A stretch of DNA of 27,765 bases from a virus. The stretch spans positions 1 through 27,765 of IMG/VR virus record IMGVR_UViG_3300031957_003354; one strand, 5' to 3'. Made by a program: the position numbers and the translations under genes. The notes beneath the pieces were generated by a model, which had not been told where the DNA came from, did not search any database, and worked only from the letters and a program-made list of their open reading frames with translations. Of the stretch, positions 7,031 to 27,133 are shown one piece after another. How positions within the stretch are numbered: the first letter of the stretch is position 1; each line of letters begins with the position of its first letter.

Positions 7031-7052
7031 CACATCATTTGATGTCAAAGGA

Positions 7053-11431: not shown

Positions 11432-11469
11432 CGACCGATAGACCAGCCAGCCAGCCAGTTTATCGGTCG
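11432..11469 (+). repeat. CCAG-loop hairpin behind the capsid gene
   Basis: The stem 11432-11443 pairs with 11458-11469 over 12 base pairs, including one G-T pair (outer part CGACCGATA/TATCGGTCG). The loop is the 14 bases CAGCCAGCCAGCCA (11444-11457). It starts 11 bases after the capsid stop and lies before the ribosome site of the 11490 gene. There is no long T tract, so an mRNA-stabilising or processing hairpin is as likely as a terminator. This is the strongest member of the family. Confidence 0.85.
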
Positions 11470-11489
11470 TTAATCTTCTGGAGATTACA

Positions 11490-11876
11490 ATGGGTATCAA
11501 TCAACGGGTGATCACATCTGGAACCCTCACCGGTGCAAACTCTATCGACGCTGCACGGGTCGTCTGGCCATATGCTGAGAAGGGTTACCTCGAAGCGGCA
11601 TACATCGAAAATGCTCTGGCAGTCGATCCAGCAAGCGACACCGACAACATCACGATCAGTGCGACCATCAATGCAACCACCATCTTTAGCCGCCAGACCA
11701 ATGTTGCTGGTGGCGTCTTGGCTCAGGGTGTTCATGCCCAGACGATTGGTGCTTCCATGGTCGGTGACAAGCGTGAAGTGAGCAGCGGTGACACGATTAG
11801 CTTCGATGTTGCTGAAGCCGGAACGGGTCCATCATATGACCTGCGCGTGACTTTGGTTTTCAATCTGATCAACTGA
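11490..11876 (+). CDS. Putative capsid decoration or head-stabilising protein
   Basis: 128 residues with the ribosome site TGGAGATTACA before ATG 11490. The composition is beta-rich and Ala/Thr/Ser-rich with no charged clusters (GTLTGANSIDAARVVWPYAEKG, ITISATINATTIF, then SYDLRVTLVFN at the end), as in small structural shell proteins. It lies directly after the capsid gene, the usual place for decoration or stabilisation proteins. No specific family motif is recognised, so the role is inferred from position and composition. Confidence 0.6.
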   Translation: MGINQRVITSGTLTGANSIDAARVVWPYAEKGYLEAAYIENALAVDPASDTDNITISATINATTIFSRQTNVAGGVLAQGVHAQTIGASMVGDKREVSSGDTISFDVAEAGTGPSYDLRVTLVFNLIN

Positions 11877-11890
11877 TTTGGAGGGTGTAA

Positions 11891-12511
11891 GTGGCTCTTA
11901 CCAATGCCAGCAATGTCGCAGCCTTGTCCGGTGGTTCGATTCAGGCCACTGAGACAGGCATGTCAGATTTGATCTCACGGGCAGGGATCATCATTGCTCG
12001 GTATTGCGGATACCCTGCTGCGACGGTCAGCGGAAATCCGACAATGGAATCAGCCACTTACACCCACTATTCCGGCACTTCTCAAGTTGTGGTGAGAGAC
12101 AGCCGCGAGCTGGTGCTGGAGCCTTACCCCGTCACTGCAATCACTTCGATTCATGACGACCCGGATGAAGAGTACACGGCGGCGGATCTTGTTGCTGGGT
12201 CTGACTATGTCCAGCGTGGTCTGCATGGTGAGGTCATCCGGCTGAAGGCGGATAGCCTGCATGGTGGATGGTCACGCAGCAGCCACGCCATCAAAGTCAT
12301 TTATACAGCAGGCTATTCAACAGTTCCCGATGATTTGGTTCATGCTGCGACTGAGTTTGTGCTGCACATGTTCAATCTCAGAAGTCGACGCGGAACATCC
12401 GCGACATCGAGCCCCGATGGGCTCAATATTACGTATCGGTCTGAGCAAATTCCCGACCATGTGAAGCAGCTGCTGGCACAGTATCGGCTGCCATCGGTGT
12501 ACGTGCCATGA
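11891..12511 (+). CDS. Head-tail connector (gp6-like adaptor)
   Basis: 206 residues starting at GTG 11891 behind TTTGGAGGGTGTAA. It has the layout of the HK97 gp6/SPP1 gp15-type adaptor: an N-terminal helical part (MSDLISRAGIIIARYCGYP), a beta region (LVLEPYPVTAITSIHDDPD, GEVIRLKADS), VIYTAGY, and C-terminal helices (VPDDLVHAATEFVLHMFNLR). Adaptors dock under the portal ring after packaging. The TYHA/ITAGY-type pattern and the position between capsid and gp10-like genes support the call. The stop overlaps the next ATG at 12508. Confidence 0.78.
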   Translation: MALTNASNVAALSGGSIQATETGMSDLISRAGIIIARYCGYPAATVSGNPTMESATYTHYSGTSQVVVRDSRELVLEPYPVTAITSIHDDPDEEYTAADLVAGSDYVQRGLHGEVIRLKADSLHGGWSRSSHAIKVIYTAGYSTVPDDLVHAATEFVLHMFNLRSRRGTSATSSPDGLNITYRSEQIPDHVKQLLAQYRLPSVYVP

Positions 12512-12963
12512 AGCCGCTCAGCCAGTTTCCGCTGGATCTGGGCTATGCTGCGGATCACTTCGAAGACCGTGTCAGTGATGCAGTCAAGCACACCATGGCG
12601 ACAGCCGAACGACTGGCCATCATGAATGCCAGCGGTCGCGTGTTGAAACGTCGCAGCGGCAATCTGGCTCGGTCAATCAAGACACGCATTCAAAAGAAGG
12701 GCGGGAAGGTCACGGCTTCTCTGTCAGCCGGAAACGGAAATGTCAGATATGCGATGATTCATGAAGTCGGCGGCATCATTCAGGGTCGCCCCTGGCTTGT
12801 CTTTCAGCTGGCTGACGGTGGATGGCGAAAAGTGGAGCGGGTGCGGATCCCGGCTCGACCGTATCTGGGGCCAGCAATGGATGAAGCCTTGAGCGGTCTT
12901 GATGATGATCTTCGCGCCGAACTGGAACCGCTGCTGTCATTGAATCATCGTGGGGTGATGTGA
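12508..12963 (+). CDS. HK97 gp10-like tail completion / head-tail joining protein
   Basis: 151 residues, coupled to the connector gene by ATGA. It has the typical helical start (VSDAVKHTMATAERLAIMNA), a basic RRSGNLARSIKTRIQKKGGKV segment, YAMIHEVGGII, and the RIPARPYLGPAMDEAL motif. The last motif is characteristic of the HK97 gp10 / lambda gpZ type family. These proteins help to join the completed head to the tail tube. Confidence 0.83.
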   Translation: MKPLSQFPLDLGYAADHFEDRVSDAVKHTMATAERLAIMNASGRVLKRRSGNLARSIKTRIQKKGGKVTASLSAGNGNVRYAMIHEVGGIIQGRPWLVFQLADGGWRKVERVRIPARPYLGPAMDEALSGLDDDLRAELEPLLSLNHRGVM

Positions 12964-13433
12964 TGTCGAGCAGTCAAGTCCGAAGCGCATTGATTCAGAT
13001 GCTGCAAAGCATCAATGGGATTTTGCCCTATACGATGAATCTCAGCACATCGACATTCTCCGGTATGGAACCAGCAACGGGTCGACCAGCTGGCCAGATT
13101 GCATATGTATGGCGTGGTCGCGCCAGCATCACAAGAGATCCCGACGCCACACTGGCTGGCTGGATGGTTGAACGGGTTCATGCCCTGACAATCTACAATC
13201 CGCCAGACAGTCAAGACAACGCTGACCGCGAGACGGCACTGGATGTCATCGAAGCCGACATCCTGAATGCAGTCGATGAAGCATTGGGAAGCGGTGGAGC
13301 ACTGGCAAACATCAATGTGCTCGATGTTACCAACATCGAAATCGTGCCGCGTTTCTCATCACAACCCGGCTCACAGGCACAGCCCAGCGCGGTCGATGTG
13401 CTCTTGACCCTTCGATATCTCAGAGGCCGATAG
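12963..13433 (+). CDS. Tail terminator-like protein
   Basis: 156 residues from ATG 12963, inside GTGATGTGATG at the previous stop. The pattern of an N-terminal helix (SSQVRSALIQMLQSI), a central beta sheet with ERVHALTIYNP, a helix over ALDVIEADILNAVDEAL, and a final strand (SAVDVLLTLRYLRGR) resembles the lambda gpU/gp-terminator family. Such proteins cap the tail tube and stop its growth. The position directly after the gp10-like gene is the usual one. An LAGW tetrapeptide (residues about 63-66) comes from a reverse-oriented CCAG repeat at 13152-13163. Confidence 0.65.
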   Translation: MSSSQVRSALIQMLQSINGILPYTMNLSTSTFSGMEPATGRPAGQIAYVWRGRASITRDPDATLAGWMVERVHALTIYNPPDSQDNADRETALDVIEADILNAVDEALGSGGALANINVLDVTNIEIVPRFSSQPGSQAQPSAVDVLLTLRYLRGR

Positions 13434-13434
13434 C

Positions 13435-14241
13435 ATGGCATGGCTGAAAATCTCAGGATCCTCGAATCCATTCAACCAGCGATTCCCAGTGTGCGTGAAT
13501 GCATCAACGCTGGCCAGTTCCGGCAATCAAGATGTGCAAGTCATCATTCCAAAAACGCTCGAGCTCTTCTGGGAGTCGATTGGATCTGACGGATACGACA
13601 TCCGGGTGACCGATGCCGATGGCATCACACTGGTCGACCATGCATGGGGAACATGGAACTACACCAGCCGCTCAGGCACTCTTGAGATTTATGGCGCCAG
13701 TGGTTCAAACAATTGGGAAGCCCAGCAGTCATCGATGCCTCTGCTGTGGATCTATGTCGGAGATGCTGACGCTGGCGATGCTGCCGCGACAGCCACCATC
13801 AGCAGTCCGCTTGATGGGTTCTTGTCACCAGAGCGCCCAGCCGAAATCATCGTGGTTTCAGACCCGACCCCAGGCAGACAGCTTCCAGACAACACACGCA
13901 GCAAGTCCAGTGGCGACCGTCGTGGATACTGGTTCGACTTCCGGTCTGTGCTCCGTCGTGGCGCTCGACGATACAATGACCGGACTGAATGGGAAGAGAT
14001 CGATTTCGTTGAAGTTTCGACCGAGTCTGGCGGATCTGCCGCCAGCATCGAAGTCGAAGCATCAACACGATTCGAAGGATCTGCACTGGTGCGCGTGGTT
14101 GTCGATGGTGGCACCGATGGCACCGACTATACTTTGATTGTCAAGGCAACTACCCGGATCCCGGATGATTCAACTGGCGCGACTCGACAAGTCGTCGAAG
14201 GCAGATTGCTGATTCAAGTCCGCGACCAAGATGACGCATAG
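13435..14241 (+). CDS. Beta-rich structural protein, probably head-tail or tail surface
   Basis: 268 residues, starting two bases after the previous stop. Two beta-rich halves can be seen. Residues 1-120 (FNQRFPVCVNASTL, VTDADGITLVDHAWGTWNY, PLLWIYVGDADAGD) resemble the carbohydrate-binding-like DUF2341 style. Residues 165-262 (WFDFRSVLRRGARRYNDRTEW, VEVEASTRFEG, TLIVKATTRIPD) look immunoglobulin-like. No catalytic motif or membrane segment is seen. Its position between tail terminator and tail tube is unusual for a purely enzymatic protein and suggests a virion component, perhaps an external decorating or host-surface-binding protein. The assignment is tentative. Confidence 0.6.
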   Translation: MAWLKISGSSNPFNQRFPVCVNASTLASSGNQDVQVIIPKTLELFWESIGSDGYDIRVTDADGITLVDHAWGTWNYTSRSGTLEIYGASGSNNWEAQQSSMPLLWIYVGDADAGDAAATATISSPLDGFLSPERPAEIIVVSDPTPGRQLPDNTRSKSSGDRRGYWFDFRSVLRRGARRYNDRTEWEEIDFVEVSTESGGSAASIEVEASTRFEGSALVRVVVDGGTDGTDYTLIVKATTRIPDDSTGATRQVVEGRLLIQVRDQDDA

Positions 14242-14249
14242 GAGTAACA

Positions 14250-15245
14250 ATGCCCAGCACATTACCATTCAAAACAGCAATCGGAATCGGTGTAGAGTCG
14301 ACCCGTGGCACCCCAGTCAGCCGGACAAACTGGGTCGAGGCCCAGTCGGCTGAATTCACTGAGACAGCCACGTATGAACGGTTCCCAGTTATGCAGGCAG
14401 TGTGGGGTGGATCCCGCCAGCTGTCTCACATCACCCAGAAGCAGGTGGTCGGCACACTGACGGTTCCGCTTCAATATGATGGCATCGGTCTGCTGCTCAA
14501 AGGGCTGATGGGCAATGTCGTCACCAGCGGTCCGGTTGGAAGCAAGTATTCGCATGCGTTCAATCTCAGCACTGTCCCGCCCGAGTTTCTGACGATTGAA
14601 AAGATCATCGGAACATCTGGACAGCGTGAACTGTACACCGGATGCTGCATTGCTGGCGGTCGCATCACATTCCGTCGAGCTGCTGTGTCATTCATGGAGC
14701 TGGACATTATCGGATTTAAGGCTGACAGCTTTGCCAGTGCACCGACACCGACTTTCGGCGCCAGCGTGGTCGGCCGTGCTCTCTACTCTCGCCACTTGAA
14801 CAACAGTGCCAGCGGTATCCCCTTTGAGCTGACATGGAACAGCGCACAGTACACCGCACAGGAAGTCACAATCACCTTCGCCAACAATGTGAGCGATGTG
14901 GGTGACATGGGCAGCTATTACGCCACCGATGTCGACCAAGGTGGCGAACGGCTGATCACCGTTGCAGTCGGGACTCGACATGTCGGCAGTGGTACTGATG
15001 CACTGTATACAGCGCACCGAGATGAAACCCAGTCTGACTTGACCTTTACTGCCACAGGTGACGGCGCCGATCAGTCAATGGAATTCACCTGTCGAGCAGC
15101 CAAGATCACAGACATGCCAGCACCGCCATTGAGCGGCAATGACCGTGTCATTGTTCGACCTACCTTTACATGCCATGACACGGCATCAGACGGTGCAATC
15201 AGCATTGTCATTGGCAATCAAAGCTCATCAGCAACATCAAACTGA
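14250..15245 (+). CDS. Major tail tube protein
   Basis: 331 residues with the ribosome site AGGAGTAACA before ATG 14250. The start (MPSTLPFKTAIGIGVESTRGTP) and the layout of repeated beta strands (VVGTLTVPLQYDGIGLLLKGLMG, ITFRRAAVSFMELDIIGFK, DLTFTATGDGADQS) are typical of siphovirus tail tube subunits. In relatives they stack as hexameric rings around the tape measure. It sits two genes downstream of the terminator and directly before the tail chaperone pair, as expected. The stop codon lies within the left arm of a CCAG hairpin (15242-15279). Confidence 0.82.
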   Translation: MPSTLPFKTAIGIGVESTRGTPVSRTNWVEAQSAEFTETATYERFPVMQAVWGGSRQLSHITQKQVVGTLTVPLQYDGIGLLLKGLMGNVVTSGPVGSKYSHAFNLSTVPPEFLTIEKIIGTSGQRELYTGCCIAGGRITFRRAAVSFMELDIIGFKADSFASAPTPTFGASVVGRALYSRHLNNSASGIPFELTWNSAQYTAQEVTITFANNVSDVGDMGSYYATDVDQGGERLITVAVGTRHVGSGTDALYTAHRDETQSDLTFTATGDGADQSMEFTCRAAKITDMPAPPLSGNDRVIVRPTFTCHDTASDGAISIVIGNQSSSATSN

Positions 15246-15279
15246 TTGACCAGCCAGCCAGCAGGCCAGCCAGTTTCAG
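15242..15279 (+). repeat. CCAG-loop hairpin behind the tail tube gene
   Basis: CTGA (15242-15245) pairs with TCAG (15276-15279), and GAC (1548-50 of this block, 15248-15250) pairs with GTT (15273-15275), with a two-base TT bulge. The loop is 22 bases made of CAGC units with one AGGC variant. The stem overlaps the tail tube stop codon and its right arm enters the ribosome site (CAGGAGAC) of the next gene, so folding could lower translation of the tail chaperone. Confidence 0.65.
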
Positions 15280-15287
15280 GAGACAAC

Positions 15288-15809
15288 ATGCCACCATCAA
15301 ATACGGGGTCGATGTTTTCACGCATCGACCAAGCCAGTTCAGCCATCGCCTATCAGCCACTTCGGGCTGATTTGGCCCTGGCATTCAAAGTTCGATTCAT
15401 CGGTGTTCAAGAGGCTGCGCGACTGGGTGTGCTCATCCAGACCATGCAGCAACTGATCGGACGATATCGTCAGCCCAGCGAAGAAGACCTGAGCGGACTC
15501 GAAGCCGCTGAGATGGAAGCGGCTCGCATGGATGACGAACAACAGCGCGAACAGATTGATCAGATGATCGGTCGTTCCATGGCGGTCGCAAAATCGGTGA
15601 TCACCCATGTGCAGGATTTCGACGACCCTGAACAGTGGGTTCCAGTTCGCTGGGTCGACAGTCCAGAAGAAGAAGGCGACCACGATGACCATGTCTGTCT
15701 GTGCGCTGAGCGTGTCATTCGGTCCGATGGACTGGCCAACATTTTGCAGGCCACACTGGCTCCCGCGTCGGAGGTGGCGGATCACTGGCGCCCCTTTCCT
15801 GTCAGATGA
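15288..15809 (+). CDS. Tail assembly chaperone, short form (frame 0)
   Basis: 173 residues from ATG 15288 with AGGAGACAAC upstream; an in-frame TTG at 15246 runs through the CCAG repeat and is less likely. The protein is acidic and helical (LGVLIQTMQQLIGRY, EAAEMEAARMDDEQQREQIDQMIGR). Its position between tail tube and tape measure is diagnostic for the tail assembly chaperone pair (lambda G/GT type), which coats the tape measure during assembly. The frame ends CGC CCC TTT CCT GTC AGA TGA. The +1 frame continues as a good coding sequence without its own start (see 15792-16020), so a programmed frameshift is expected. Confidence 0.75.
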   Translation: MPPSNTGSMFSRIDQASSAIAYQPLRADLALAFKVRFIGVQEAARLGVLIQTMQQLIGRYRQPSEEDLSGLEAAEMEAARMDDEQQREQIDQMIGRSMAVAKSVITHVQDFDDPEQWVPVRWVDSPEEEGDHDDHVCLCAERVIRSDGLANILQATLAPASEVADHWRPFPVR

Positions 15810-16020
15810 AGCGACCTGCAACCAGCTGGACAAGCAGGCTCGACGATACAACACCGCACCGTCTCAGATCCTTGGCATCGACTCCGGTTCATGGGCGTCG
15901 GTGTTGGTTGATACTGCATGCCGACTGTCAGGGCTTGCTGAATTTGATGTGATGGTCGAAAATGCCAGACAGCAGAAGGCTATGGTTTTCCCAACGCTGC
16001 CAATGACTGGGGGTCTGTGA
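15792..16020 (+). CDS. Tail assembly chaperone extension (+1 frame, no own start)
   Basis: About 73 residues (APFLSDEATCNQ to FPTLPMTGGL) in the +1 frame relative to 15288-15809. No ATG, GTG or TTG with a ribosome site begins it. The sequence is typical of the C-terminal T part of phage chaperones (LDKQARRYNTAPSQILGI, DTACRLSGLAEFDVMVENA). The likely slip site is the CCC TTT C run at 15792-15798, where tRNA-Pro can move from CCC to CCT or tRNA-Phe from TTT to TTC, 9-15 bases before the frame-0 stop. The fused product would be about 245 residues. The TGA at 16018-16020 overlaps the tape measure ATG. Confidence 0.7.
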
Positions 16021-17738: not shown

Positions 17739-18548
17739 ATGGGACAGCCGAAGATATTCTGGTATCCAGAAGGTGCCGCCGCTTTCCAGACTATTGCGCT
17801 GCCGCATGTATCCGCAATCGCTGTCAGCCAGTATCGAGATGTCGCCGATGCTGAAGGGTTGACGATGACACGGCTCGACCGTGGTGGCGGTCGATTGATT
17901 ACGCTTCGTGGTCGATACAATGTCGCCAACCATGCCAATGTGATCCGAGCTCTTCAGACCCTTGACAGTTATCTTCGCTATGGTGGTCGAATCGCCTATG
18001 CTCACGACAGCGACAAAGCATGGATGGCACCGCTGATTCGGTTTGGCGCCAGTGGGTCGACATCTGTTTTCACCGACTCGAATGTGCTTCCATACAGCAC
18101 TGCGGTCACACTATCGAACAACGATGAAATCGAATTCATGGTCACGAATCCGCTTCGGTTCGAAAGGGCTGTGATATCGACAGCGATTGCATACGGGACT
18201 GGATACCATTTGACGCTGTCGCGTGGTCTGTACAATCAGCAACCAAACAACGGGATCGTGCGCACTCAGTACTGCTTTCCATCGCTGTACATGGATGCCA
18301 GGGCAGCAAACAGCCCAGAGCGATGGCTTGATGATTCACGTCATCCGGGTCTGATTTACGAAATGGATTTGACGCTGGTCGAGCTGCCCTATGAAGTCGC
18401 GTCGATGCTTGGATCTTCACTGGCCAGTGGCAACTATCAAATCGGTGCAGGTGGATTCAGCATCAACGACACAGTGAATGCAACGGACTTTCAGAGCGAA
18501 CGCTTCACCAATGAATCGACGAATCCTAATAGGGTGCTGATCCGATGA
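17739..18548 (+). CDS. Tail tip protein (distal-tail-like)
   Basis: 269 residues with the ribosome site GGGAGAACATAA; the ATG follows the tape measure stop directly. It is beta-rich and lacks membrane segments or enzymatic motifs. The segment RLDRGGGRLITLRGRYNVANHANVIRALQTLDSYLRYGG resembles the ring-forming domain of distal tail proteins. Directly downstream of the tape measure, this is the usual place for the first tail-tip component. Family membership is inferred mainly from position. The stop overlaps the next ATG (18545). Confidence 0.6.
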   Translation: MGQPKIFWYPEGAAAFQTIALPHVSAIAVSQYRDVADAEGLTMTRLDRGGGRLITLRGRYNVANHANVIRALQTLDSYLRYGGRIAYAHDSDKAWMAPLIRFGASGSTSVFTDSNVLPYSTAVTLSNNDEIEFMVTNPLRFERAVISTAIAYGTGYHLTLSRGLYNQQPNNGIVRTQYCFPSLYMDARAANSPERWLDDSRHPGLIYEMDLTLVELPYEVASMLGSSLASGNYQIGAGGFSINDTVNATDFQSERFTNESTNPNRVLIR

Positions 18549-20152
18549 CATGGCCCAGCGAGTTTCGTGAGCTTCTGTATTCAGGCGGTATCGTGCATCA
18601 AGCACTCTTGCTCGAATGCATTATGCCAGCCAATGGTGAAGGAGTCGGGCTGGCTGAATGGTTCGCATCAACCGACCCCAGTCTGGCGCCCTATGCGAGG
18701 CTGCTCCAGAAGTCTGGCTTCGAGCCGCGGCTGGGTTCGACTGGTGTCAATATTCAGAGCTGGTCACCCATCGAAGGCGGCTGGAGTGTCACGGTGAAAG
18801 TCGCTGACGGGCTGGTCGCTGGTCAATCGTTCACACGTCCCGCACTCGAATATGCATCGAAGGCACTGCGCAAGGGTGCCATGCTCCGTCTGTCGATTGG
18901 AGAAGTCGGATATGCAAAGTCCGAATATCAGCCATTGAAGATCGGCCGCATCAATCAAGTGCAAAACGACGGTCACCCGAATCTCTTCCGCATCGATGTC
19001 TGGGATCTGACGACAGCGATTCGAACCCGGATGTCAACAGCTGGAGCATCAACCGCTGAACGTGCGAAGCTCTTCTACAACTCCGCTGGGCAGCTCGACA
19101 CCCTTTCATCGAATTACAGCACTGGCGACACATCACTGGCCATTACTGGCGCCACGACAAATCGTTTTCTTCGTGAGACAGGGCAGCGCGGTGCAGTCAT
19201 CGTCGATCCGCATTCTGGCGGACATCCACAGTTTTATTTGACCTTTACTGGTGAGACGACAAACACACTCACTGGCCTATCAGCAACCGGACAATTTGGG
19301 ACGACTGAGCACAATGCAACATCTGGCGACACAGTCAAATCAGTCGTCTTGCTCGAGGGTCATCCGATTGACATCTTGAGAAAGGTGCTGGTGTCGACTG
19401 GTGCTGGCACGAATGGCGCCTTCGATACGCTCCCGCAGGCATGGTCGCTGGGCATTCCAGAAGACATGCTGAGCGATACGGCATGGGACCGAGCAAAACG
19501 AATCCTGAAAGTGACTGGCGCATATGAATGGCGTTTTCTGCTGACTGCTGAGATTGACGACCCAGCATCATGGATTGTCCAGACCTGGGGCACAGCTGGA
19601 ATCTGGCTGGCATTCAAAGAAGGTCAGATTGTGCCCAGATTCGCTCGCCAATTGCACACTGCTGGGCTGTCTCGTCAGTTCGGAGACATCACCGACAGCG
19701 AAATCATCGAAGTGCCGAAAGTCATCTGGCACCCTCCTGATGTGCCTGAAGTTTATCAGCGGATTCAAGTCACATACAACGGCGGCACTGTTGCAGCGAC
19801 TTCCAATGTGACGACACTGCCAGCGCGAAAAGAGATTGAATATGACATCTCCGCAGTGACCAACACAGTCACGGCACAGGTAGCCATCGCCAACGAAACA
19901 CGCGACAGACTGGCTGGCTGGGCTCACTTTGTTCCTGAGTTTGTGGAGGTCGTGTTGTACGGTCTTCGAAGCTATGCCGCTGGCGATGTCATCCAGCTGT
20001 CAACGACTGGTGTTCGTGGTCGACTGACAGGCACACGGTATGGGTACGAAAACAGACTGGTGATGGTGGTCCGCGAAGAAATGGACATCGGCGAAAACAA
20101 GACCATGCTGACACTGGCAACATTGCCGACAGACCGAACCGAAGATGAATAG
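18545..20152 (+). CDS. Large tail-tip / hub protein
   Basis: 535 residues, ATGA-coupled to the preceding gene. The middle part (SVVLLEGHPIDILRKVLVSTGAGTNG, LPQAWSLGIPEDMLSD) and the beta-rich C-terminus (VEVVLYGLRSYAAGDVIQLSTTGV, VMVVREEMDIGENKTMLTLATLP) look like hub or tail-associated proteins of short siphovirus tail tips. I place it as the hub or tail-associated protein by position (second gene after the tape measure) and size. LAGW at about residues 455-460 comes from a reverse CCAG repeat (19910-19921). It is the last large structural gene before lysis. Confidence 0.6.
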   Translation: MTWPSEFRELLYSGGIVHQALLLECIMPANGEGVGLAEWFASTDPSLAPYARLLQKSGFEPRLGSTGVNIQSWSPIEGGWSVTVKVADGLVAGQSFTRPALEYASKALRKGAMLRLSIGEVGYAKSEYQPLKIGRINQVQNDGHPNLFRIDVWDLTTAIRTRMSTAGASTAERAKLFYNSAGQLDTLSSNYSTGDTSLAITGATTNRFLRETGQRGAVIVDPHSGGHPQFYLTFTGETTNTLTGLSATGQFGTTEHNATSGDTVKSVVLLEGHPIDILRKVLVSTGAGTNGAFDTLPQAWSLGIPEDMLSDTAWDRAKRILKVTGAYEWRFLLTAEIDDPASWIVQTWGTAGIWLAFKEGQIVPRFARQLHTAGLSRQFGDITDSEIIEVPKVIWHPPDVPEVYQRIQVTYNGGTVAATSNVTTLPARKEIEYDISAVTNTVTAQVAIANETRDRLAGWAHFVPEFVEVVLYGLRSYAAGDVIQLSTTGVRGRLTGTRYGYENRLVMVVREEMDIGENKTMLTLATLPTDRTEDE

Positions 20153-20155
20153 AGA

Positions 20156-20179
20156 TAGACCAGCCAGCCAGCCAGTATA
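20156..20179 (+). repeat. CCAG repeat with weak stem after the tail hub gene
   Basis: Four CCAG units (20160-20175) follow the hub stop by seven bases. A short imperfect stem TA-G-AC/GT-A-TA encloses the 14-base loop CAGCCAGCCAGCCA. The layout matches the stronger hairpins at 11432 and 26970 but the pairing is poor (four pairs and one mismatch). Confidence 0.55.
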
Positions 20180-20254
20180 GAAACATGCACCGAGCACATG
20201 CCCGGACTTTACCGAAAACAGGCCAGCAGGGTATAACGATGGAGAGGTTGACAA

Positions 20255-20500: not shown

Positions 20501-21213
20501 TCCTTCGGCTTCAGCACACACTGTCACGCATGGGATACGAACCGGGTCGGCTCGATGGTGTGCTGGGTCCGCGAACCCGTGGTGCGATTCGAGCTGCTGA
20601 GAAGGCCGCTGGGCTTCGTCAAACTGGCCAGCCTTCGGGTGTGTTGATTGCTGATCTGGATCGCCGGCTGGCTGGTCTGGTGTCTGGGATTGGATGGGTG
20701 CGACTCGAAGATGTCCAAAGCATTGCAACGATGTTCCCTGCCAGCCATTTGCCGCTGTTACAGGCCGCATTGATCGAAATATCGGCCACACCTACACGGG
20801 CGGCACATTTTATCGCTCAAATCGCCCACGAAAGCGCAGGTTTCATGGCGCTTCTGGAGTACGCCAGCGGGACAGCATATGAAGGCCGCGCAGACCTTGG
20901 AAACACACAACCAGGGGACGGCAAGCGATACAAAGGCCGGGGCGTGATTCAGCTGACTGGTCGCGCCAACTATCGGCGCACTGGTGTGTATTTGGGTGTC
21001 GATTTGGAGAAGCAGCCCGACTTGGCTGCTGTCCCAGCGATTGCCTATCAGACAGCCGCATTCTATTGGCTGGATCGAAACATCAACGCGCATGCAGACC
21101 GTGACGATATACTGGCGGTGACAAAGGCCATCAACGGCGGCACAAATGGTCTGAAGCATCGGACCCAGTTGCTCAAAGCAGCGAAGGCCGCATTCTTTCT
21201 CGACATCGCATAG
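20497..21213 (+). CDS. Endolysin: peptidoglycan-binding domain + GH19 muramidase/chitinase fold
   Basis: 238 residues from ATG 20497 (ATGA overlap). Residues 1-60 form a PG_binding_1-type repeat (LQHTLSRMGYEPGRLDGVLGPRTRGAIRAAE). Residues 75-238 form a glycoside hydrolase family 19 domain: AHFIAQIAHESAGF with E112, EYASGTAYEGR with a second acidic candidate E121 or E129, then GDGKRYKGRGVIQLTGRANY. Phage GH19 endolysins cut the peptidoglycan glycan strand. There is no signal peptide, so release needs a holin or another route. The neighbouring downstream membrane protein (21708) is the best candidate partner. Confidence 0.9.
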   Translation: MILRLQHTLSRMGYEPGRLDGVLGPRTRGAIRAAEKAAGLRQTGQPSGVLIADLDRRLAGLVSGIGWVRLEDVQSIATMFPASHLPLLQAALIEISATPTRAAHFIAQIAHESAGFMALLEYASGTAYEGRADLGNTQPGDGKRYKGRGVIQLTGRANYRRTGVYLGVDLEKQPDLAAVPAIAYQTAAFYWLDRNINAHADRDDILAVTKAINGGTNGLKHRTQLLKAAKAAFFLDIA

Positions 21214-21222
21214 GAGCCAGAC

Positions 21223-21708
21223 ATGGCTGAACTGATTCAAAAGATACGTGCTCGACTCGAAGAAATCAGGGGCAACATCAAAAGCAAACGACAAGACATC
21301 GTGGAAGAAGCGGTTGAAATGCTGGCTGCTGGCTTTGATGAGGAGCTTGTCTTCGAAGAACTGCGCGACCGATATGTTGATTCGGTTCCACTGTTTGCAG
21401 AGAAGCTTGATGCCAGTGTCGACTTCGAAAAGGTCATCCCTGGCATCGCTGGTCAGATTCTGGAAGCGGTCGACGGCCTGCTGATTGATAGACTGCTGAA
21501 GCTTTTCATTGCGGCAGCTGGGCGCCGTGTGAATCTTGACGGACCGACCATCGGAGACATGCGCAGACAGATGGCTGGTGTGCAGCGTCGACGTGTCGAG
21601 ATTGTCCGGCGCCCGATTGCTTCCAGTGTCGCCGATGTCCCCAGTCGTCCCAGTGCACTCGAAGTCAGCTCTGGCGGGGCTGGCTGGGGCATGGATGAAG
21701 AAATCTGA
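21223..21708 (+). CDS. Hypothetical helical protein in the lysis block
   Basis: 161 residues with AGGAGCCAGAC before ATG 21223. The first 95 residues are predicted helical and charged (IQKIRARLEEIRGNIKSKRQDIVEEAVEML, LFAEKLDASVDFEKVIPGIAGQILEAVDGLL). The C-terminal third is a low-complexity, probably disordered, Arg/Ser/Gly tail. No signal peptide or transmembrane helix is seen. It sits between endolysin and the membrane protein at 21708, whose ATG overlaps its stop by one base. Its function is unknown; a lysis accessory role is only suggested by location. Confidence 0.62.
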   Translation: MAELIQKIRARLEEIRGNIKSKRQDIVEEAVEMLAAGFDEELVFEELRDRYVDSVPLFAEKLDASVDFEKVIPGIAGQILEAVDGLLIDRLLKLFIAAAGRRVNLDGPTIGDMRRQMAGVQRRRVEIVRRPIASSVADVPSRPSALEVSSGGAGWGMDEEI

Positions 21709-22208
21709 TGATCACGCTGACGGTAATCGCTCTACTGCTTTTCCCGTCGAATGCATGGGCGACTCAAAAATTGAACATCGATCCAAACACGCTGGGCGCC
21801 ATCTTGGCGGCACTGCTCACCACACTGGGCGGCGGTGGCTATTACCTGAAGCGGCACCGCGATGTCAAAGACGGTCGCGATGACCTGTCGACAAAGACAA
21901 AAATTGCCATTGCTCGCGACAACGCCGAACAGGTGATTCGGGAAAAGGTGCGCGACTATCATGACGAAGTCTCCAATCTTCGTCGCGATGTGATTCAGAT
22001 GCAGCAGCTGGTCGCCAATGCAATCAAAGCCAGTCAAGCAGCCGTCGAAGATGTGAAGACACTGCGGCAAGAGATGGATCAGCGATTCCGCGACAACTCG
22101 CAAGCCCAGCAACTCGAGCGACTGCTGGGACCACTTTCAGACCTTGAGACAAAGCTGACAAGAGCAATCGAAATCACCGAGCGAAAAGGGGGCGGATATG
22201 GCGACTGA
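21708..22208 (+). CDS. Membrane protein with signal peptide and coiled coil (spanin- or holin-like)
   Basis: 166 residues. Residues 1-18 form a cleavable-looking signal sequence (ITLTVIALLLFPSNAWA, with AWA before Thr). A second hydrophobic helix lies at 28-47 (TLGAILAALLTTLGGGGYYL), and a basic KRHRDVK stop-transfer stretch follows. Residues 65-160 are a charged coiled coil (VRDYHDEVSNLRRDVIQMQQL, VEDVKTLRQEMDQRF). One helix plus a long coiled coil recalls inner-membrane spanins, which bridge to the outer membrane in the last lysis step. With two hydrophobic stretches it could instead be a holin. The basic residues after the helix would place the coiled coil in the cytoplasm, which argues against a standard spanin, so the call stays open. 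Confidence 0.6.
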   Translation: MITLTVIALLLFPSNAWATQKLNIDPNTLGAILAALLTTLGGGGYYLKRHRDVKDGRDDLSTKTKIAIARDNAEQVIREKVRDYHDEVSNLRRDVIQMQQLVANAIKASQAAVEDVKTLRQEMDQRFRDNSQAQQLERLLGPLSDLETKLTRAIEITERKGGGYGD

Positions 22209-22410
22209 TGACCAAAGATGGACACGAACGAAGCCAACACTGACTCCAGCAGGTGGATGGCAGCCGATACCCGGTTCACGGATTCGGCCTGATGCTGAAG
22301 TGCCGGGGCACTGGCGCCCGTTTGCTCTTTTGATTCCACGGCTGTCAGTTGTCCGCTATCTGCTATCAAAGACCATCAGACATTTATCCAGCCAGCCAGC
22401 CAGCAAATAA
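22198..22410 (+). CDS. Small basic protein ending in a CCAG-encoded tail
   Basis: 70 residues, overlapping the previous gene by 11 bases, with AAGGGGGCGG upstream of ATG 22198. It is Pro- and Arg-rich (PDAEVPGHWRPFALLIPRLSVVRYLLSK). The last residues SSQPASK derive from four CCAG units (22388-22403) that extend to the stop, so the repeat defines the C-terminus. It could be a second lysis protein such as an outer-membrane partner overlapping the spanin-like gene, but no lipobox or signal sequence is visible. Unknown function. Confidence 0.5.
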   Translation: MATDDQRWTRTKPTLTPAGGWQPIPGSRIRPDAEVPGHWRPFALLIPRLSVVRYLLSKTIRHLSSQPASK

Positions 22411-22422
22411 TAGGAGCCACAC

Positions 22423-22713
22423 ATGGGCACTGCATCACCGACTTACAGCCGATCCGGTCAAATCGCCATCAGCAGCACAATGGCCAACAATTATCTGAGT
22501 TTGAATGACACAGTGAAGGCCGTGTCGGTCTATCTCGACGACAGTTCGAACAATGGAACGATGTCGCTGAACAATGCGACCGATGCAGTCACGCTTCCAA
22601 AGCAGCAATGGCTGACCATTTGGCAACGTGCGGAAGGATTCACCGGTCTTTATCGACTGTACTTTGCCAGCACTTCAGGCACTCCCAATTTGAAATACAT
22701 TACCTGGGGCTGA
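22423..22713 (+). CDS. Small structural-like protein
   Basis: 96 residues with AGGAGCCACAC before ATG 22423. The sequence is polar and beta-rich with many Ser, Thr and Asn residues (IAISSTMANNYLSLNDTVKAVSVYLDD, ATDAVTLPKQQWLTIWQRAEG), as in small virion or fibre-associated proteins. It sits just before the Gly-rich protein at 22715, and the two starts and stops almost touch. No family is recognised. Confidence 0.6.
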   Translation: MGTASPTYSRSGQIAISSTMANNYLSLNDTVKAVSVYLDDSSNNGTMSLNNATDAVTLPKQQWLTIWQRAEGFTGLYRLYFASTSGTPNLKYITWG

Positions 22714-22714
22714 G

Positions 22715-23524
22715 ATGAGTTTTGCATACACAGGCGGCATGCACATGATGGGGGTGCCACCAGCTAGCGGCGGTGGCGGTGGTGGTTCAGAAGATATCGA
22801 CAGCAGCGATGTCACGTATGAAACGGTTGACCTGACGGATACATCAGAATGGACTTTGCTGGATCCCGACAGCATATTGAACACTGTCACAATCAATTCT
22901 GGTGTCCACACGTTCACTTTCAATGCTGTGGCTGATGTGCTGCCAGAACACACTCCAACGAATTCAACTCCAAAATGGCCGCGATGGTATCGGCGCCTGT
23001 CTCCAAATGGTACCGATTGCAATACTGATGATCATGTCGTGCTCTTGAGTCGGATGTCAGATTTGACACGCAATTTCACGGCATCCGACACATTCGGAAT
23101 TTATATGCTGCATGGTCTGCATGAAGACCCAACGCAAATTGCAGTCCGAGCAGACATGAAAGCGTCTGAATTTTTTGTGCAATGGAATAGCGGCGTGTCA
23201 GCAAATCCCCAATTTGGCGGGATCTGCAATGCGCAGCGCACAGCTTTTGCGACTGGCGCCAATCAAAACCGCTGGCTGGGGCATGTGATTACACGCCCTG
23301 ACCTTCACATCGGTGTAACTGGCTGGGGTCTGAAAACTGACGGCACCCTGGTGGGCAACGGTTTTCGCCAGTATCCCTCCGCCAATCCCTTTTCATCGCC
23401 AGCAGTAGCAATTTATGAAGTCGTTGGTCTGGCATTTGGCAGTGCCTCATCAGACACGGTCGCGGCTGGCGATAGTATCACAATGAAAATCATGTCTCGC
23501 GGCATGAAACTACCGGGGTCATGA
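22715..23524 (+). CDS. Putative tail fibre-like or virion surface protein
   Basis: 269 residues, starting one base after the preceding stop (TGAGATG). A short N-terminal head (SFAYTGGMHMMGVPPA) is joined by a SGGGGGGSE linker to a Thr/Ser/Asn-rich beta body (ETVDLTDTSEWTLLDPDSI, VTINSGVHTFTFNA, ending SITMKIMSRGMKL). A flexible glycine linker after a small anchoring region is common in phage fibres and decorations. The body shows no catalytic signature. It follows the lysis block, where several siphophages keep host-range genes. The inference rests on composition and context. Confidence 0.55.
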   Translation: MSFAYTGGMHMMGVPPASGGGGGGSEDIDSSDVTYETVDLTDTSEWTLLDPDSILNTVTINSGVHTFTFNAVADVLPEHTPTNSTPKWPRWYRRLSPNGTDCNTDDHVVLLSRMSDLTRNFTASDTFGIYMLHGLHEDPTQIAVRADMKASEFFVQWNSGVSANPQFGGICNAQRTAFATGANQNRWLGHVITRPDLHIGVTGWGLKTDGTLVGNGFRQYPSANPFSSPAVAIYEVVGLAFGSASSDTVAAGDSITMKIMSRGMKLPGS

Positions 23525-23763
23525 TGAGCCATCAAACAGACTATCAAGCCGTCACATTTGGCAATTTTGATGTGGAGACAGCAGACGGGTCACGGCCGGG
23601 TGAAGTCGAAGGATACAGCATTCCCGTCATTATCTCCAGCTCGGAAGCGGCAACACTGCTGGCAGCCTATGACCAAGCTGACAGCGGTTCGCCAACAGCG
23701 AACACCGCCCGAGAGATTGCCCGTGCGGTGTTGGATGCTTTGAAGAGATACACTGGCAGCTAA
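23521..23763 (+). CDS. Small hypothetical protein, end of rightward block
   Basis: 80 residues at an ATGATG start overlapping the previous stop. Soluble, acidic first half and an Ala-rich helical end (TANTAREIARAVLDALKRYTG). It has no recognised domain, though it may associate with the preceding structural protein since they are coupled. Its TAA (23761-23763) overlaps the TAG of the convergent leftward gene (23760-23762 read on the minus strand), with no terminator between them. Confidence 0.6.
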   Translation: MMSHQTDYQAVTFGNFDVETADGSRPGEVEGYSIPVIISSSEAATLLAAYDQADSGSPTANTAREIARAVLDALKRYTGS

Positions 23764-24062
23764 CGGCAGTCGATGACCCCGACAGCAATCAGCAGGGTCA
23801 TCACTGCTTCTCTGTCTTCACCCAGTGGCATTTGATTGGCTTTAAGTGCATGGTATGCACCAATCAATCGAGATGCCGCCAGACCGTCAGCCAGGACTTG
23901 GTATCGACCCTGAGTGAAGCGGTCGAGAGTCGTCCGAATTTCCAGAATCTGACACCGCAGTTTGACGATTTCATTCGGGAAAGTCGGCGCCAGCAGCGCG
24001 ATGGACTGTTCAGCCAATCGCAACTGCTCCCGCAGCTGGTCGCACTGGTCACACTGCACCAT
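23760..24062 (-). CDS. Leftward hypothetical protein with N-terminal cysteine pair
   Basis: 100 residues from the ATG at 24062 (a GTG at 24068 is less likely), with GAGGAGTGATC upstream on the minus strand. Near the start is MVQCDQCDQLREQL, a CxxC followed by a coiled-coil-like helix with leucine spacing. The remainder is helical (KLRCQILEIRTTLDRFT, SRLIGAYHALKANQ). It begins two bases after the previous leftward stop, so it is the last gene of a three-gene leftward operon. Unknown function. Confidence 0.65.
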   Translation of the reverse strand: MVQCDQCDQLREQLRLAEQSIALLAPTFPNEIVKLRCQILEIRTTLDRFTQGRYQVLADGLAASRLIGAYHALKANQMPLGEDREAVMTLLIAVGVIDCR

Positions 24063-24064
24063 GA

Positions 24065-24682
24065 TCACTCCTCACCAGCCAGCAGGGACTGGATGTGCCG
24101 CATGTCATCATGATGGGCTGCGGTGAAGCCAGAGTCGGGATCGTTCGCCTGCTCGATCATCTCCAGCAGCAGCTCACCCAGTCTGTCTTCGAGCACCTGC
24201 ACAGTGTCGCTGTGATTGATCCAGACACCGCCATCTCGCGCCTCACTTTTCAGTGCTGTCGCGATGTCGTCGATGGTTGACCCCAGTCGAGAGACTTCGA
24301 TCAAATCAGCGACCCCCAGCCAGTCGTCAGCATCCCAATACTGCGCCACCGACTCGAATGCAGATTGCAGACGATAGGCGAGTTCTTCCATTTCTTCCGG
24401 CTGGTCAATCCAATCACCGACCAGATTGTGACCATCCCACACTGTACCTTTGTAGAGTGCCGCCAGCTCTTCGATTATCGGCATGCACTCGATGACTTCA
24501 GCTCGAAGCCGCTCAGGCACTGTCGACGGACTGACGAAGAAGATCGATGCGCGATGGTGGAAAACTTTTGCAGGAACGCCAGGGCCAATCGCGCAAAACT
24601 CATCGACAATGCCTTCATCCCAGTCGATGCGAACACCGTATTTTCCGCGACTGTATCCACCGAGAAATTTTGTTACTTCCAT
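24065..24682 (-). CDS. Leftward acidic hypothetical protein
   Basis: 205 residues on the minus strand with AGGAGACAGAAA before the ATG, identical to the cassette of 6545(-). The protein is acidic, with Trp/Asp-rich stretches (QYWDADDWLGVADLIEV, WDGHNLVGDWIDQPEEMEEL) and a helical C-terminal half (QVLEDRLGELLLEMIEQANDP). There are no membrane segments. It lies downstream of the 24747-24944 gene, from which a CCAG-loop hairpin separates it. Acidic small proteins in phage early leftward operons are often host-takeover or anti-defence factors, but nothing specific is visible here. Confidence 0.7.
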   Translation of the reverse strand: MEVTKFLGGYSRGKYGVRIDWDEGIVDEFCAIGPGVPAKVFHHRASIFFVSPSTVPERLRAEVIECMPIIEELAALYKGTVWDGHNLVGDWIDQPEEMEELAYRLQSAFESVAQYWDADDWLGVADLIEVSRLGSTIDDIATALKSEARDGGVWINHSDTVQVLEDRLGELLLEMIEQANDPDSGFTAAHHDDMRHIQSLLAGEE

Positions 24683-24708
24683 TTTCTGTCTCCTATTGAA
24701 AGATTGAA

Positions 24709-24738
24709 GACCGGACCAGCCAGCATGCCAGTCCGGTC
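24709..24738 (-). repeat. CCAG-loop hairpin between two leftward genes
   Basis: A perfect eight-base-pair stem GACCGGAC/GTCCGGTC (24709-24716 with 24731-24738) encloses a 14-base loop CAGCCAGCATGCCA, read on the plus strand. The loop length and flanking AC/GT match the elements at 11432 and 26970, but the stem sequence is unrelated. On the minus strand it follows the 24747 stop by eight bases and is trailed by a weak T-rich stretch, so it could attenuate transcription between the two genes. Confidence 0.8.
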
Positions 24739-24746
24739 GAGTTGTT

Positions 24747-24944
24747 TTACTTGAACCAACCGGGCAGGTCAGTTTCGAAGATGGGTGCCATGTATTCAGC
24801 GAAGCGGTCGTCTTCGTCTTGCTGTGCGAGATCGGTCACCATTTCTTCGACGGCTTCAGCTGTCTCGGTCCAGCAGTAGTCGCTGACATCTTCGAGAAAG
24901 GTGATGTCTTCGACGGCTTCAGTGTTGTTTTCAGTTTCTGTCAT
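24747..24944 (-). CDS. Leftward small very acidic protein
   Basis: 65 residues from the ATG at 24944, with GGGAGG at suitable distance upstream; an in-frame ATG at 24962 lies at the predicted transcript 5' end. It is strongly acidic (EAVEDITFLEDVSDYCW, AVEEMVTDLAQQDEDD). The start MTETENN closely resembles the start of the rightward membrane miniprotein at 26151 (MTEMTETENN). It is the first gene of the leftward operon behind the divergent promoter. Such small acidic early proteins may mimic DNA or bind host factors; this is an inference only. Confidence 0.65.
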   Translation of the reverse strand: MTETENNTEAVEDITFLEDVSDYCWTETAEAVEEMVTDLAQQDEDDRFAEYMAPIFETDLPGWFK

Positions 24945-24968
24945 TGTATGCCTCCCAAGCATGTCTGA

Positions 24969-24997
24969 TCTTTATCCCCTCCCTGGTAAAGTGTAAA
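24969..24997 (-). promoter_or_regulatory. Leftward sigma70-like promoter
   Basis: On the minus strand, TTTACA (24997-24992) and TAAAGA (24974-24969) are spaced by 17 bases. Six bases after the -10 box the sequence reads ATG of the conserved leader (24962), so the predicted transcript starts at or next to that ATG. Confidence 0.65.
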
Positions 24998-25043
24998 CCC
25001 AAAATAGGAAAAAAAATATATGCAGAAAAGTGATGCATAGGCG

Positions 25044-25072
25044 TTTACATGCCTATCAGGATTCGATATAGT
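25044..25072 (+). promoter_or_regulatory. Rightward sigma70 promoter for the HNH operon
   Basis: TTTACA (25044-25049), a 17-base spacer and TATAGT (25067-25072) give a near-consensus promoter. Six bases later comes ATG 25079 of the conserved leader, exactly mirroring the leftward promoter. The A-rich tract at 25006-25021 lies between the two promoters and may act as an UP-type element. Confidence 0.8.
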
Positions 25073-25096
25073 GTAGACATGCTTGGGAGGCATGAC

Positions 25097-25459
25097 ATGG
25101 CACATACCAAAAATTGGATCCGGCGAGACAAGAGACTCGCAATATACCTGCGCGATGGCTTTGAATGCGTCTACTGTGGCGCCAAGGCTGAAAGCCCTGG
25201 CGTGATGCTGTCACTCGATCATCTCATCTGTCGGTCAGCTGGCGGCGGAAATAACGCATCAAACCTCATCACCGCCTGCATGCACTGCAATTCAACCCGA
25301 CGCGACACTGAGCTGGGTGAATGGCTTCAAATCGCTTGCGGTGATGATGCCGCCAAGACCGCACGGTTCATCGTCGAGCATACAGCACTGGACTTGGCGC
25401 CCTACCGGAAAGAAGCCAAAGCTATCATCGCCAGACGGAAATCGTCCGTCAGCAAATAA
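25097..25459 (+). CDS. HNH endonuclease
   Basis: 120 residues from ATG 25097, with GGGAGG upstream in the conserved leader; in-frame ATGs at 25079 and 25049 are alternatives, 25049 being inside the promoter. The HNH zinc-finger nuclease core is complete: C24xxC27, the LSLDHLICRSAGGGNN motif with catalytic H42, N55, and C61xxC64N. Phage HNH proteins either act at cos ends together with terminase or are free-standing homing or degradative nucleases. Placement at the head of the early rightward operon, far from terS within this window, favours a free-standing role, unless the genome map closes differently outside the window. Confidence 0.88.
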   Translation: MAHTKNWIRRDKRLAIYLRDGFECVYCGAKAESPGVMLSLDHLICRSAGGGNNASNLITACMHCNSTRRDTELGEWLQIACGDDAAKTARFIVEHTALDLAPYRKEAKAIIARRKSSVSK

Positions 25460-25510
25460 ATGAATGCAGCAAATGTGTTATGCATCAATAGTCTACACGG
25501 AGGTAGTGAC

Positions 25511-25729
25511 ATGGAACATCTCGGAACACAGATCAAGAGAGCTCGTGAGCAAGCTGGCGTCGGCATGTACACGCTTGCCAGAGAAATCAAGACATCACCG
25601 CACACACTGCGGAAGTTGGAGAAGGATGGCTGGTGCCGCCATCCTGAGCTGCTTCAGGAAATCGCCACGTATCTCAATGCACAATTTGTCATCGTCATTC
25701 AGCCGGCGGCTTCAGATGCGATACAGTGA
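25511..25729 (+). CDS. Small HTH (XRE-like) regulator
   Basis: 72 residues from ATG 25511, with CGGAGGTAGTGAC upstream; the in-frame ATG at 25460 has no ribosome site. Residues 5-45 have the XRE/Cro helix pattern (QIKRAREQAGVGMYTLAREIKTS then THTLRKLEKDG). The C-terminal part (LLQEIATYLNAQFVIVIQP) matches the C-terminal strand of Cro-like antitoxin or repressor proteins. Adjacent to the divergent promoter, it could regulate that switch. The identical GGAGGTAGT site recurs before the 26151 gene. Confidence 0.78.
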   Translation: MEHLGTQIKRAREQAGVGMYTLAREIKTSPHTLRKLEKDGWCRHPELLQEIATYLNAQFVIVIQPAASDAIQ

Positions 25730-25865
25730 AGCCGACCAGCTGGCTGGTCTGGGCTGGGGTTTGTCTCCTGACAGTCTGGACTGGCTGGCTGGTTTTCTCC
25801 GCTGTCGGCTGATCAAATCGATACCCTGCATAAACCGACACACCGATCCCACGGACATCAAATGA
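25716..25865 (+). CDS. Possible miniprotein bridging the two HTH genes
   Basis: 49 residues from ATG 25716, overlapping the previous gene by 14 bases, with its TGA overlapping the next ATG (ATGA at 25862). That coupling geometry is typical of real genes here. The sequence is largely composed of reverse-CCAG translations (LAGL, then WLAGF). No good ribosome site is visible. It may be real, or the region may be a repeat-built intergenic spacer containing a perfect GACCAGC/GCTGGTC palindrome (25734-25749). Confidence 0.33.
   Translation: MRYSEADQLAGLGWGLSPDSLDWLAGFLRCRLIKSIPCINRHTDPTDIK
25734..25749. repeat. Perfect palindromic CCAG/CTGG element
   Basis: GACCAGC and GCTGGTC are separated by two bases. 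A three-unit CTGG run follows at 25781-25792. It lies in the gap between the two HTH genes and could be an operator for one of them or a degenerate member of the CCAG family. Confidence 0.6.
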
Positions 25866-26098
25866 CAGAGAAGAAGGAAAGCTGGGGCGCCCTGATGAAG
25901 AAGGAGCGCCAGTCCATCGGAATGACCATTTATGAAGCAGCTCGACGTTTGAACCTTGACTGGGTCAAGCTCGACAAGATGGAACGCGGCCTTTATCGGG
26001 TCAGACCTGAAGTGCTGGTAATGGCACTGGCTGAATATCAAGCCAGTATCTTCACCCGTGAACGGGCATACCGCTGGGCGAAACAACAACAAAAATGA
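25862..26098 (+). CDS. Second small HTH (XRE-like) regulator
   Basis: 78 residues from ATG 25862. The layout (WGALMKKERQSIGMTIYEAARRLNL then VKLDKMERGLYRVRP) is an XRE-type helix-turn-helix, with an aromatic-rich C-terminus (AYRWAKQQQ). It is the second small HTH in the same operon, and the first two-thirds aligns in pattern with the upstream regulator, suggesting a paired repressor/antirepressor or duplicate regulators. Ribosome site weak. The stop is followed after four bases by the hairpin 26103-26136. Confidence 0.75.
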   Translation: MTEKKESWGALMKKERQSIGMTIYEAARRLNLDWVKLDKMERGLYRVRPEVLVMALAEYQASIFTRERAYRWAKQQQK

Positions 26099-26102
26099 AA
26101 AT

Positions 26103-26136
26103 GGACCCGGCACCGCTTGGGAGGCATGCCGGATCC
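26103..26136 (+). repeat. CTTGGGAGGCAT-loop hairpin
   Basis: Stem GGACCCGGCA/TGCCGGATCC (one mismatch in ten pairs) with a 14-base loop CCGCTTGGGAGGCA (26113-26126). The loop repeats the CTTGGGAGGCAT core of the divergent leaders at 24948 and 25081, and the 14-base loop size equals that of the CCAG hairpins. It lies between the second HTH gene and the 26151 gene and ends before the GGAGGTAGT ribosome site. No T tract follows on the plus strand. Confidence 0.7.
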
Positions 26137-26150
26137 ATGGAGGTAGTCAA

Positions 26151-26312
26151 ATGACAGAAATGACTGAAACGGAAAATAACTCGATCAGCATCGATGTCGA
26201 GTTGTGGAAGGAATGGGAGCGCCAGCTGGCCATCAGAGAAACCTTGCTATGCATGATCTGGTTTTGCCTTGGAATGTGCACCAGTCTGCTGATCGTGGTG
26301 TTCTGGCTATGA
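26151..26312 (+). CDS. Single-pass membrane miniprotein
   Basis: 53 residues from ATG 26151, chosen for GGAGGTAGTCAA just upstream; an in-frame ATG at 26058 lies inside the preceding gene. The acidic start (MTEMTETENN) resembles that of the leftward 24944 gene. Residues 33-53 are a hydrophobic helix (LLCMIWFCLGMCTSLLIVVFW), preceded by a basic/acidic WKEWERQ stretch. The helix reaches the C-terminus, as in tail-anchored small membrane proteins. Its stop overlaps the next start (ATGA). Possible roles are superinfection exclusion or membrane-linked takeover; unproven. Confidence 0.65.
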   Translation: MTEMTETENNSISIDVELWKEWERQLAIRETLLCMIWFCLGMCTSLLIVVFWL

Positions 26313-27133
26313 AAATTGCAGTCACTGGCTGGGAGCCATGCAAGGTTGAATGGTGGCTTGACACTGTCGACGACTTGATTCGCGGTGGGCTTCCATGGTC
26401 TGACGGGTCGTGCTTGATGGATTTGGCCTTTTGGCAGGGTCAGATTCGTCTTGGTCGTCGGTCAAAGATCCCGACCAGCAGAACGCTGGCAAAGCGTTGG
26501 AAGCGGACTCGCTATGCCACACAGGGTCTGCTGCGACGCGCTGATGAATGGAAAGACTTCCATATCGACCAAAATCAGCCCAAACATCAACCAGATATCG
26601 ACCAATCTTCAGCCAAATTTCGAAGCAAAACGAAGGAAGAATGTGAAGCGGTCGACCACTTTTCATCCACTTTTCGCCCAGAAGTCGACCAAAAACCGGC
26701 ACAGGTGCGTAATACAAAGACAAAGGCAAAGACAACGAACACAATTCCAGCCAGTGCACAGGCTGGGCTGGCTGGGATCAATCTTTTGGATATCTCTGGA
26801 AATAGCCGCGACCGTCTGTGGCCGGAGTTGGTCAGTGATTTGATCAGCGCCGGTTATCAGACACTCGAAGAAGTCGCGGCAGCTGGTCGACACAATCTGG
26901 CGACCGATCTGGGGTCTGCTGCCAGCCGAAAGCGACTCGACAAAGTGCAGCGAGTAATCGAAGTCCATGGATTGACCAGCCAGCCAGCCAGTCAATCACC
27001 ACCAGGGCTGAAGTCTTTCGAGACATCCGACAGCCTCTCACTGGTCGAGCGGTATGCTCTGCCGACCACAGCACCAACGGGTCCCGCACCATGGGATTCA
27101 GTTGACTATTCAGGAGACAGAAATGGCAAGTGA
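26309..27133 (+). CDS. Probable phage replication protein (winged-helix type)
   Basis: 274 residues from ATG 26309 (ATGA overlap). The N-terminal 85 residues (WKW-like GRRSKIPTSRTLAKRWKRTRYATQGLLRRADEW) resemble HTH proteins of phage replication initiators in the O/replisome-organiser group. The middle is a long Gln/Lys-rich, disordered, NQPKHQPDIDQ-type region. The C-terminal third (DRLWPELVSDLISAGYQTLEEVAAAG) is helical. The CCAG hairpin 26970-26997 lies inside it and encodes TSQPASQS. Relatives bind the origin and recruit helicase; an origin may lie inside this gene, as for lambda O, but no clear iterons were seen. Confidence 0.6.
   Translation: MKIAVTGWEPCKVEWWLDTVDDLIRGGLPWSDGSCLMDLAFWQGQIRLGRRSKIPTSRTLAKRWKRTRYATQGLLRRADEWKDFHIDQNQPKHQPDIDQSSAKFRSKTKEECEAVDHFSSTFRPEVDQKPAQVRNTKTKAKTTNTIPASAQAGLAGINLLDISGNSRDRLWPELVSDLISAGYQTLEEVAAAGRHNLATDLGSAASRKRLDKVQRVIEVHGLTSQPASQSPPGLKSFETSDSLSLVERYALPTTAPTGPAPWDSVDYSGDRNGK
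26970..26997 (+). repeat. CCAG-loop hairpin inside the putative replication gene
   Basis: A perfect seven-base-pair stem GATTGAC/GTCAATC (26970-26976 with 26991-26997) encloses the exact 14-base loop CAGCCAGCCAGCCA. The encoded residues are LTSQPASQS. This copy proves that the loop and stem pairing can be kept within a coding sequence. It could serve as an origin-like or regulatory structure. Confidence 0.8.

Follow-up and report, generated by a model that had tools for sequence, protein, structure and literature searches.

An uncultured tailed phage and its close relatives carry a dispersed family of short repeats whose common unit is a 16-base (CCNG)4 core, usually flanked by GA and TC to give GA(CCNG)4TC. 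The family is restricted to one clade, is biased towards gene junctions, occupies orthologous positions in diverged genomes and is homogenised in spelling within each genome, and its C and G positions change more slowly than the flanking sequence. We favour the interpretation, at slightly less than an even chance, that these are clade-specific recognition sites with that extended consensus, read by a putative sequence-specific factor that is co-inherited with them and acts at gene boundaries.

The CCNG repeat family

The window, by which we mean the whole stretch of DNA analysed (27,765 bases; IMG/VR record IMGVR_UViG_3300031957_003354; G000), encodes a terminase, a portal protein with a fused protease domain, a tape measure protein, a GH19 endolysin and a major capsid protein, the last assigned from weak similarity to annotated head proteins; gene limits are our own reading from open reading frames and homology. 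Approximately 540 further bases in the relative L007 bridge both window ends, and the record is thus close to complete. Named phages gave no DNA match to the window and protein matches only to the terminase or capsid, at less than 60% identity, and a search for capsid relatives in bacterial genomes found none. ORFs 745-2076 and 1085-1345 overlap in different frames, and both are similar in protein sequence to G001 and G004, possibly reflecting a nested gene. A strong terminator-like hairpin with a T run at 7046-7077 lies outside the repeat family.

Uninterrupted runs of at least four units (CCNG or CATG) occur eight times in the window, compared with 0.09 expected from synonymous-codon shuffling that keeps the proteins, and CCAGCCAGCCAG is present at 20 places (17 forward, 3 reverse), with none for the reversed control pattern. 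The set of relatives, which includes several fragments, shows about one core per 1.5-2 kb where capsid identity is at least 64%, and most contigs of this clade are enriched roughly tenfold or more over shuffles, whereas capsid relatives at 51% identity or less, although similar in GC content, show no core enrichment over shuffles; bacterial genomes likewise lack such a density of cores. The full 22-base pattern is found in three viral stretches only, one of them in this clade. An origin in host genomes was considered and rejected, as the 54 stretches in bacterial species genomes that match the generic 22-base pattern are scattered across unrelated taxa and are thus attributable to chance. Searching the literature for phage CCAGCCAGCCAG or GGCCGGCC repeats returned nothing relevant.

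Most sites in the window lie on the plus strand. A (CCAG)4 core at 11443-11458, within a hairpin at 11432-11469, separates the capsid stop codon at 11420 from the next ribosome-binding site and start at 11490, and stemless (CCAG)4 cores are found directly after terS and upstream of terL (4635-4650), after gene 18545-20152 (20160-20175) and at the 3' end of gene 22198-22410 (22388-22403), where 19 bases separate the core from the next start codon. The tail-tube gene is followed by (CCAG)3-CAGG-(CCAG)2 at 15250-15273, a weakly folding core immediately before TTTCAGGAGACAACATG. Three sites are on the minus strand: CCAGCCAGCATGCCAG in a hairpin at 24709-24738, between the minus-strand genes 24747-24962 and 24065-24682; (CCAG)3 at 25781-25792, which follows the HTH gene, precedes AGGAGAC and is conserved in G001, G004 and G005; and a variant core, CCAGCCAGCAGGCCGG, at 6153-6176, in a terminator-like hairpin with a T run that belongs to the minus-strand gene 6198-6545 after terL. 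Other copies are within genes, including (CCAG)4 in the portal/protease linker, where it encodes QPASQ (8334-8349), (CCAG)4 with a 7-bp flanking stem in the disordered linker of gene 26309-27133 (26970-26997; residues 222-241), (CCAG)4 in the two overlapping ORFs (1268-1283), and (CCAG)3 near the starts of ORFs 745-2076 (774-785) and 2073-2576 (2136-2147).

Junction zones make up 10% of the window and hold seven of the ten four-unit cores, counted with one variant unit permitted (p=1e-5). The distance from a core to the next start codon is mostly 15-33 bases, and the junctions are short, such that placement downstream of a stop and upstream of a start are inseparable. AGGAGAC(N)ATG follows the cores at 15250 and 24716 (minus strand, with the ribosome-binding site at 24694) and cores in G001 and G004, but not most others; TCAGGAGACAA occurs at nine separate places in G001. 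CCAG runs are mainly on the plus strand together with plus-strand genes, and the run at 24716 is oriented opposite to its genes. Between two plus-strand genes, the minus strand carries a conserved core with TGTCAGGAGACAAACCCCAGCC after it (window 25769-25740), with counterparts at G001 5805, G004r 10744 and G005 739; TGTCAGGAGACAAACCCCAGCC resembles a ribosome-binding site that lacks a following start codon.

The two in-gene cores examined, in the portal and in gene 26309, are both in linkers, and the structural model of the latter has low confidence at residues 222-241. The encoded peptides are always PASQ, PAGQ, PAGR or LAGW. CCNG repeats contain no stop codon in any frame, so that one motif fits both gene junctions and protein linkers. 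Gene 26309 is one of two neighbouring genes in 26309-27764 with no family match: proteins 26309 and 27126 have none in Pfam, PHROG or NCBIfam, and the low-confidence model of 26309 has no significant fold match. By resemblance the pair may be a replisome organiser and a helicase loader, and our guess for gene 26309 in G001 is an O-like replication gene.

Hairpins at a subset of sites

An initial annotation described the sites as a family of hairpins with a shared loop and unrelated stems. Hairpins are indeed present at 11432-11469, 24709-24738 and 26970-26997 (z -2.4 for the last), with 12, 8 and 7 pairs respectively and loops of exactly 14 bases, CAGCCAGCCAGCCA or CAGCCAGCATGCCA. The 12-bp stem, which includes one G-T pair, is the longest of all stems with a 14-base loop in the window. 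Only 46 stems of at least 7 bp enclose such a loop in the 27.7 kb, so that finding three among 11 cores has a chance probability of about 1e-6 (binomial, by hand). Two further loci proposed as weaker members, 15242-15279 (z -1.2) and 20156-20179 (z +1.0), fold no better than shuffles, and stemless copies of the same core at 1268, 2136, 4635, 8334, 20160 and 22388 had escaped listing. Flanking stems of at least 5 bp surround three of the 11 window cores and none or one per genome in five relatives, where orthologous cores are either paired in a different register or unpaired. The common denominator is therefore the repeat, present at many stemless places, and the notion of a paired stem around every copy is not sustained. 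Since stem registers shift among orthologs once the cores are aligned, a single covariance model would not fit, and stems were tested directly; an Rfam search of the window gave no match at the gathering score.

Selection on structure, which had been proposed for the whole family, is supported at two places and fails as a general property, most cores being unpaired. The capsid-3' site (z -4.5 in the window) folds in 10 of 10 sequences tested, significantly in most, and almost every clade member read retains it (L023 does not); L017 differs from the window there by two compensatory stem changes and by a G-C pair in place of G-U. Distant capsid relatives without CCNG cores often have an ordinary GC-rich hairpin at the same place, and the post-capsid hairpin thus appears more widespread than the repeat. 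At 24709 the better fold is that of the transcribed minus strand (12 pairs counting G-U; z -5.1), and the ortholog of this site at G001 4619 retains a hairpin with a changed stem. At the other window sites structure is weak or absent.

These observations give some weight to the idea that the elements are intercistronic RNA hairpins, folded at gene ends to terminate or attenuate transcription, protect mRNA or insulate translation, with the loop either bound or simply tolerated. The clade-wide capsid-3' hairpin, the terminator-like 6153-6176 site and the self-complementarity of CCGG spellings accord with it. As an account of the family we nonetheless judge it unlikely: the copies at 4635, 20160 and 22388 are unfolded in the window, relatives seldom have long flanking stems, and those that occur are in different registers; some cores are also in the middle of genes.

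Orthologous positions and genome-specific spelling

Six genomes share sites in the portal linker, in the tail of gene 26309, at the end of gene 22198 and between the minus-strand genes, as well as downstream of terS, the capsid and tail-tube genes, gene 18545 and the HTH gene, although not all of these are present in each genome. The spelling is CCAG×4 in the window and G005, CCGGCCGGCCAGCCGG in G001, (CCGG)3CC[AT]G in G004, and mostly CCAG(CCGG)3 or CCGG×4 in G002 and G003, the CCGG forms being palindromic. The core distance is 1.76 within a genome, whereas cores at one site in different genomes are 2.82 apart, a difference reached in 0 of 5000 permutations, and spelling tracks the genome rather than the site. 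GC content does not account for the spelling, being 54% in both G001 and the window. Mismatch rates in alignable pairs, whose comparisons are not independent, are 6-7% at unit positions 1 and 4, 17% at position 2, 30% at N and 21% in the flanks. L029 has lost the portal core and L014 has an altered version of it, and in G001 the core in gene 26309 has grown to CCGG(CCAG)7 (L095 7049-7080), a phage microsatellite.

That expansion, the rapid change at N, the restricted set of peptides and the placement in a linker of low predicted confidence are all as expected of a tetranucleotide repeat that has no function, lengthens by slippage, is made uniform by conversion or recombination between its copies and survives where it is tolerated, that is, in junctions and in linkers, since it introduces no stop codons. 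We consider such an origin improbable, because the same junctions are occupied in genomes diverged by 20-50% in protein, positions 1 and 4 change about three times more slowly than the flanks, the capsid site has compensatory stems, and the repeat is absent from distant relatives of similar GC content.

Junction placement, together with a RusA-like resolvase encoded by the phage, might also suggest boundary sequences for modular recombination among related phages, but this is very improbable: genome-specific spelling opposes shared homology, RusA was not found in G002 or G003, and the single similarity break examined, in the methyltransferase gene, is not at an element. At that break the nucleotide similarity of L007, about 90% on either side, is interrupted within the gene (window 2973-4170), which suggests that part of the methylase has been replaced. 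The short mobile hairpin of the initial annotation, REP-like or MITE-like, is hardly credible; a single sequence is found in scattered copies, and some of these have inverted-repeat arms, as such an element would, but positions are orthologous, no target-site duplication was noticed, and none of 458 alignable flank pairs contains a clean empty site. Pairing of the repeat with GGCUGG in 16S rRNA was dropped, as that stretch presumably sits in a helix.

Proposed recognition sites and comparison with known systems

Many junction sites, a lineage-specific consensus and orthologous placement match two systems of mycobacteriophages, the stoperators and ESAS, and it is for this reason that we favour recognition sites. 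We infer that a protein reads the sites, on DNA or RNA, with a regulatory effect. The sites, placed at orthologous junctions and in disordered protein linkers and spelled differently in each phage lineage, would most likely be bound by a putative reader that is phage-encoded or is a host protein that differs between hosts, and binding would act on transcription or translation at gene boundaries, as for ESAS and stoperators. At a few gene ends (post-capsid, 24709 and 6157) the site also forms part of an RNA hairpin, whose probable role is termination, attenuation or protection of the message. The linker sites and the near-palindromic symmetry speak for reading on DNA, whereas the cores that precede ribosome-binding sites and the stem with compensatory changes speak for reading on RNA at some sites. 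Several points count against recognition sites: no binding protein was identified; the methyltransferase, RusA and the HTH gene are without a match in G002 and G003, though both carry sites; and several cores are in tolerant in-gene linkers, as a neutral repeat would be. A stronger form, in which a putative co-evolving factor would read the 4-base periodicity of (CCNG)4 at most junctions as a regulatory code, with the third base conferring lineage specificity such that related phages keep separate expression systems on a shared site layout, is distinctly doubtful.

For an uncultured phage group, the analysis documents dispersed junction sites that are spelled by lineage and lie at orthologous places, as described earlier for the stoperators and ESAS of mycobacteriophages; should a reader protein exist, the spellings would provide a ready-made specificity series. 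The initial annotation knew of no described family with such a layout, but there are precedents: Cluster K SAS/ESAS for dispersed sites, and hairpins with CUUCGG in T4 and other phages. The latter combine a conserved loop with unrelated stems and are predominantly intergenic (Tuerk et al. 1988, via PMC8948821); each of them contains a hyperstable tetraloop, whereas here the loop has 14 bases and most copies of the loop sequence are stemless. Known phages have binding-site families whose spelling tracks a recognising protein, and the repeats here are likewise spelled per phage.

Cluster A stoperators number 20-34 per genome, are mainly intergenic and have one predominant orientation, and their consensus differs between subclusters as the spelling here differs between genomes (PMC3029335, PMC6550527). 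They are, in contrast, 13-bp asymmetric sites with a proven repressor that stops transcription elongation; the window yielded two HTH-like genes, at 25460 and 25862, and no demonstrated repressor or lysogeny functions. Cluster K SAS/ESAS are short genome-wide repeats at gene starts, of unknown function (PMC3203893). The Cluster K SAS is a 13-bp GGGATAGGAGCCC with 17-bp inverted repeats, and no sequence similarity to either was seen here, where the motif is TCAGGAGACAA; the present repeats differ further in having a core of 4-base period and in being distributed genome-wide, including among structural genes and sometimes inside genes. The ESAS inverted repeats lie upstream of a repeated ribosome-binding motif; among the cores here some, though not most, precede AGGAGAC. 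As in the present phages, the same orthologous genes carry ESAS, and the ESAS inverted-repeat consensus varies between genomes (PMC3203893).
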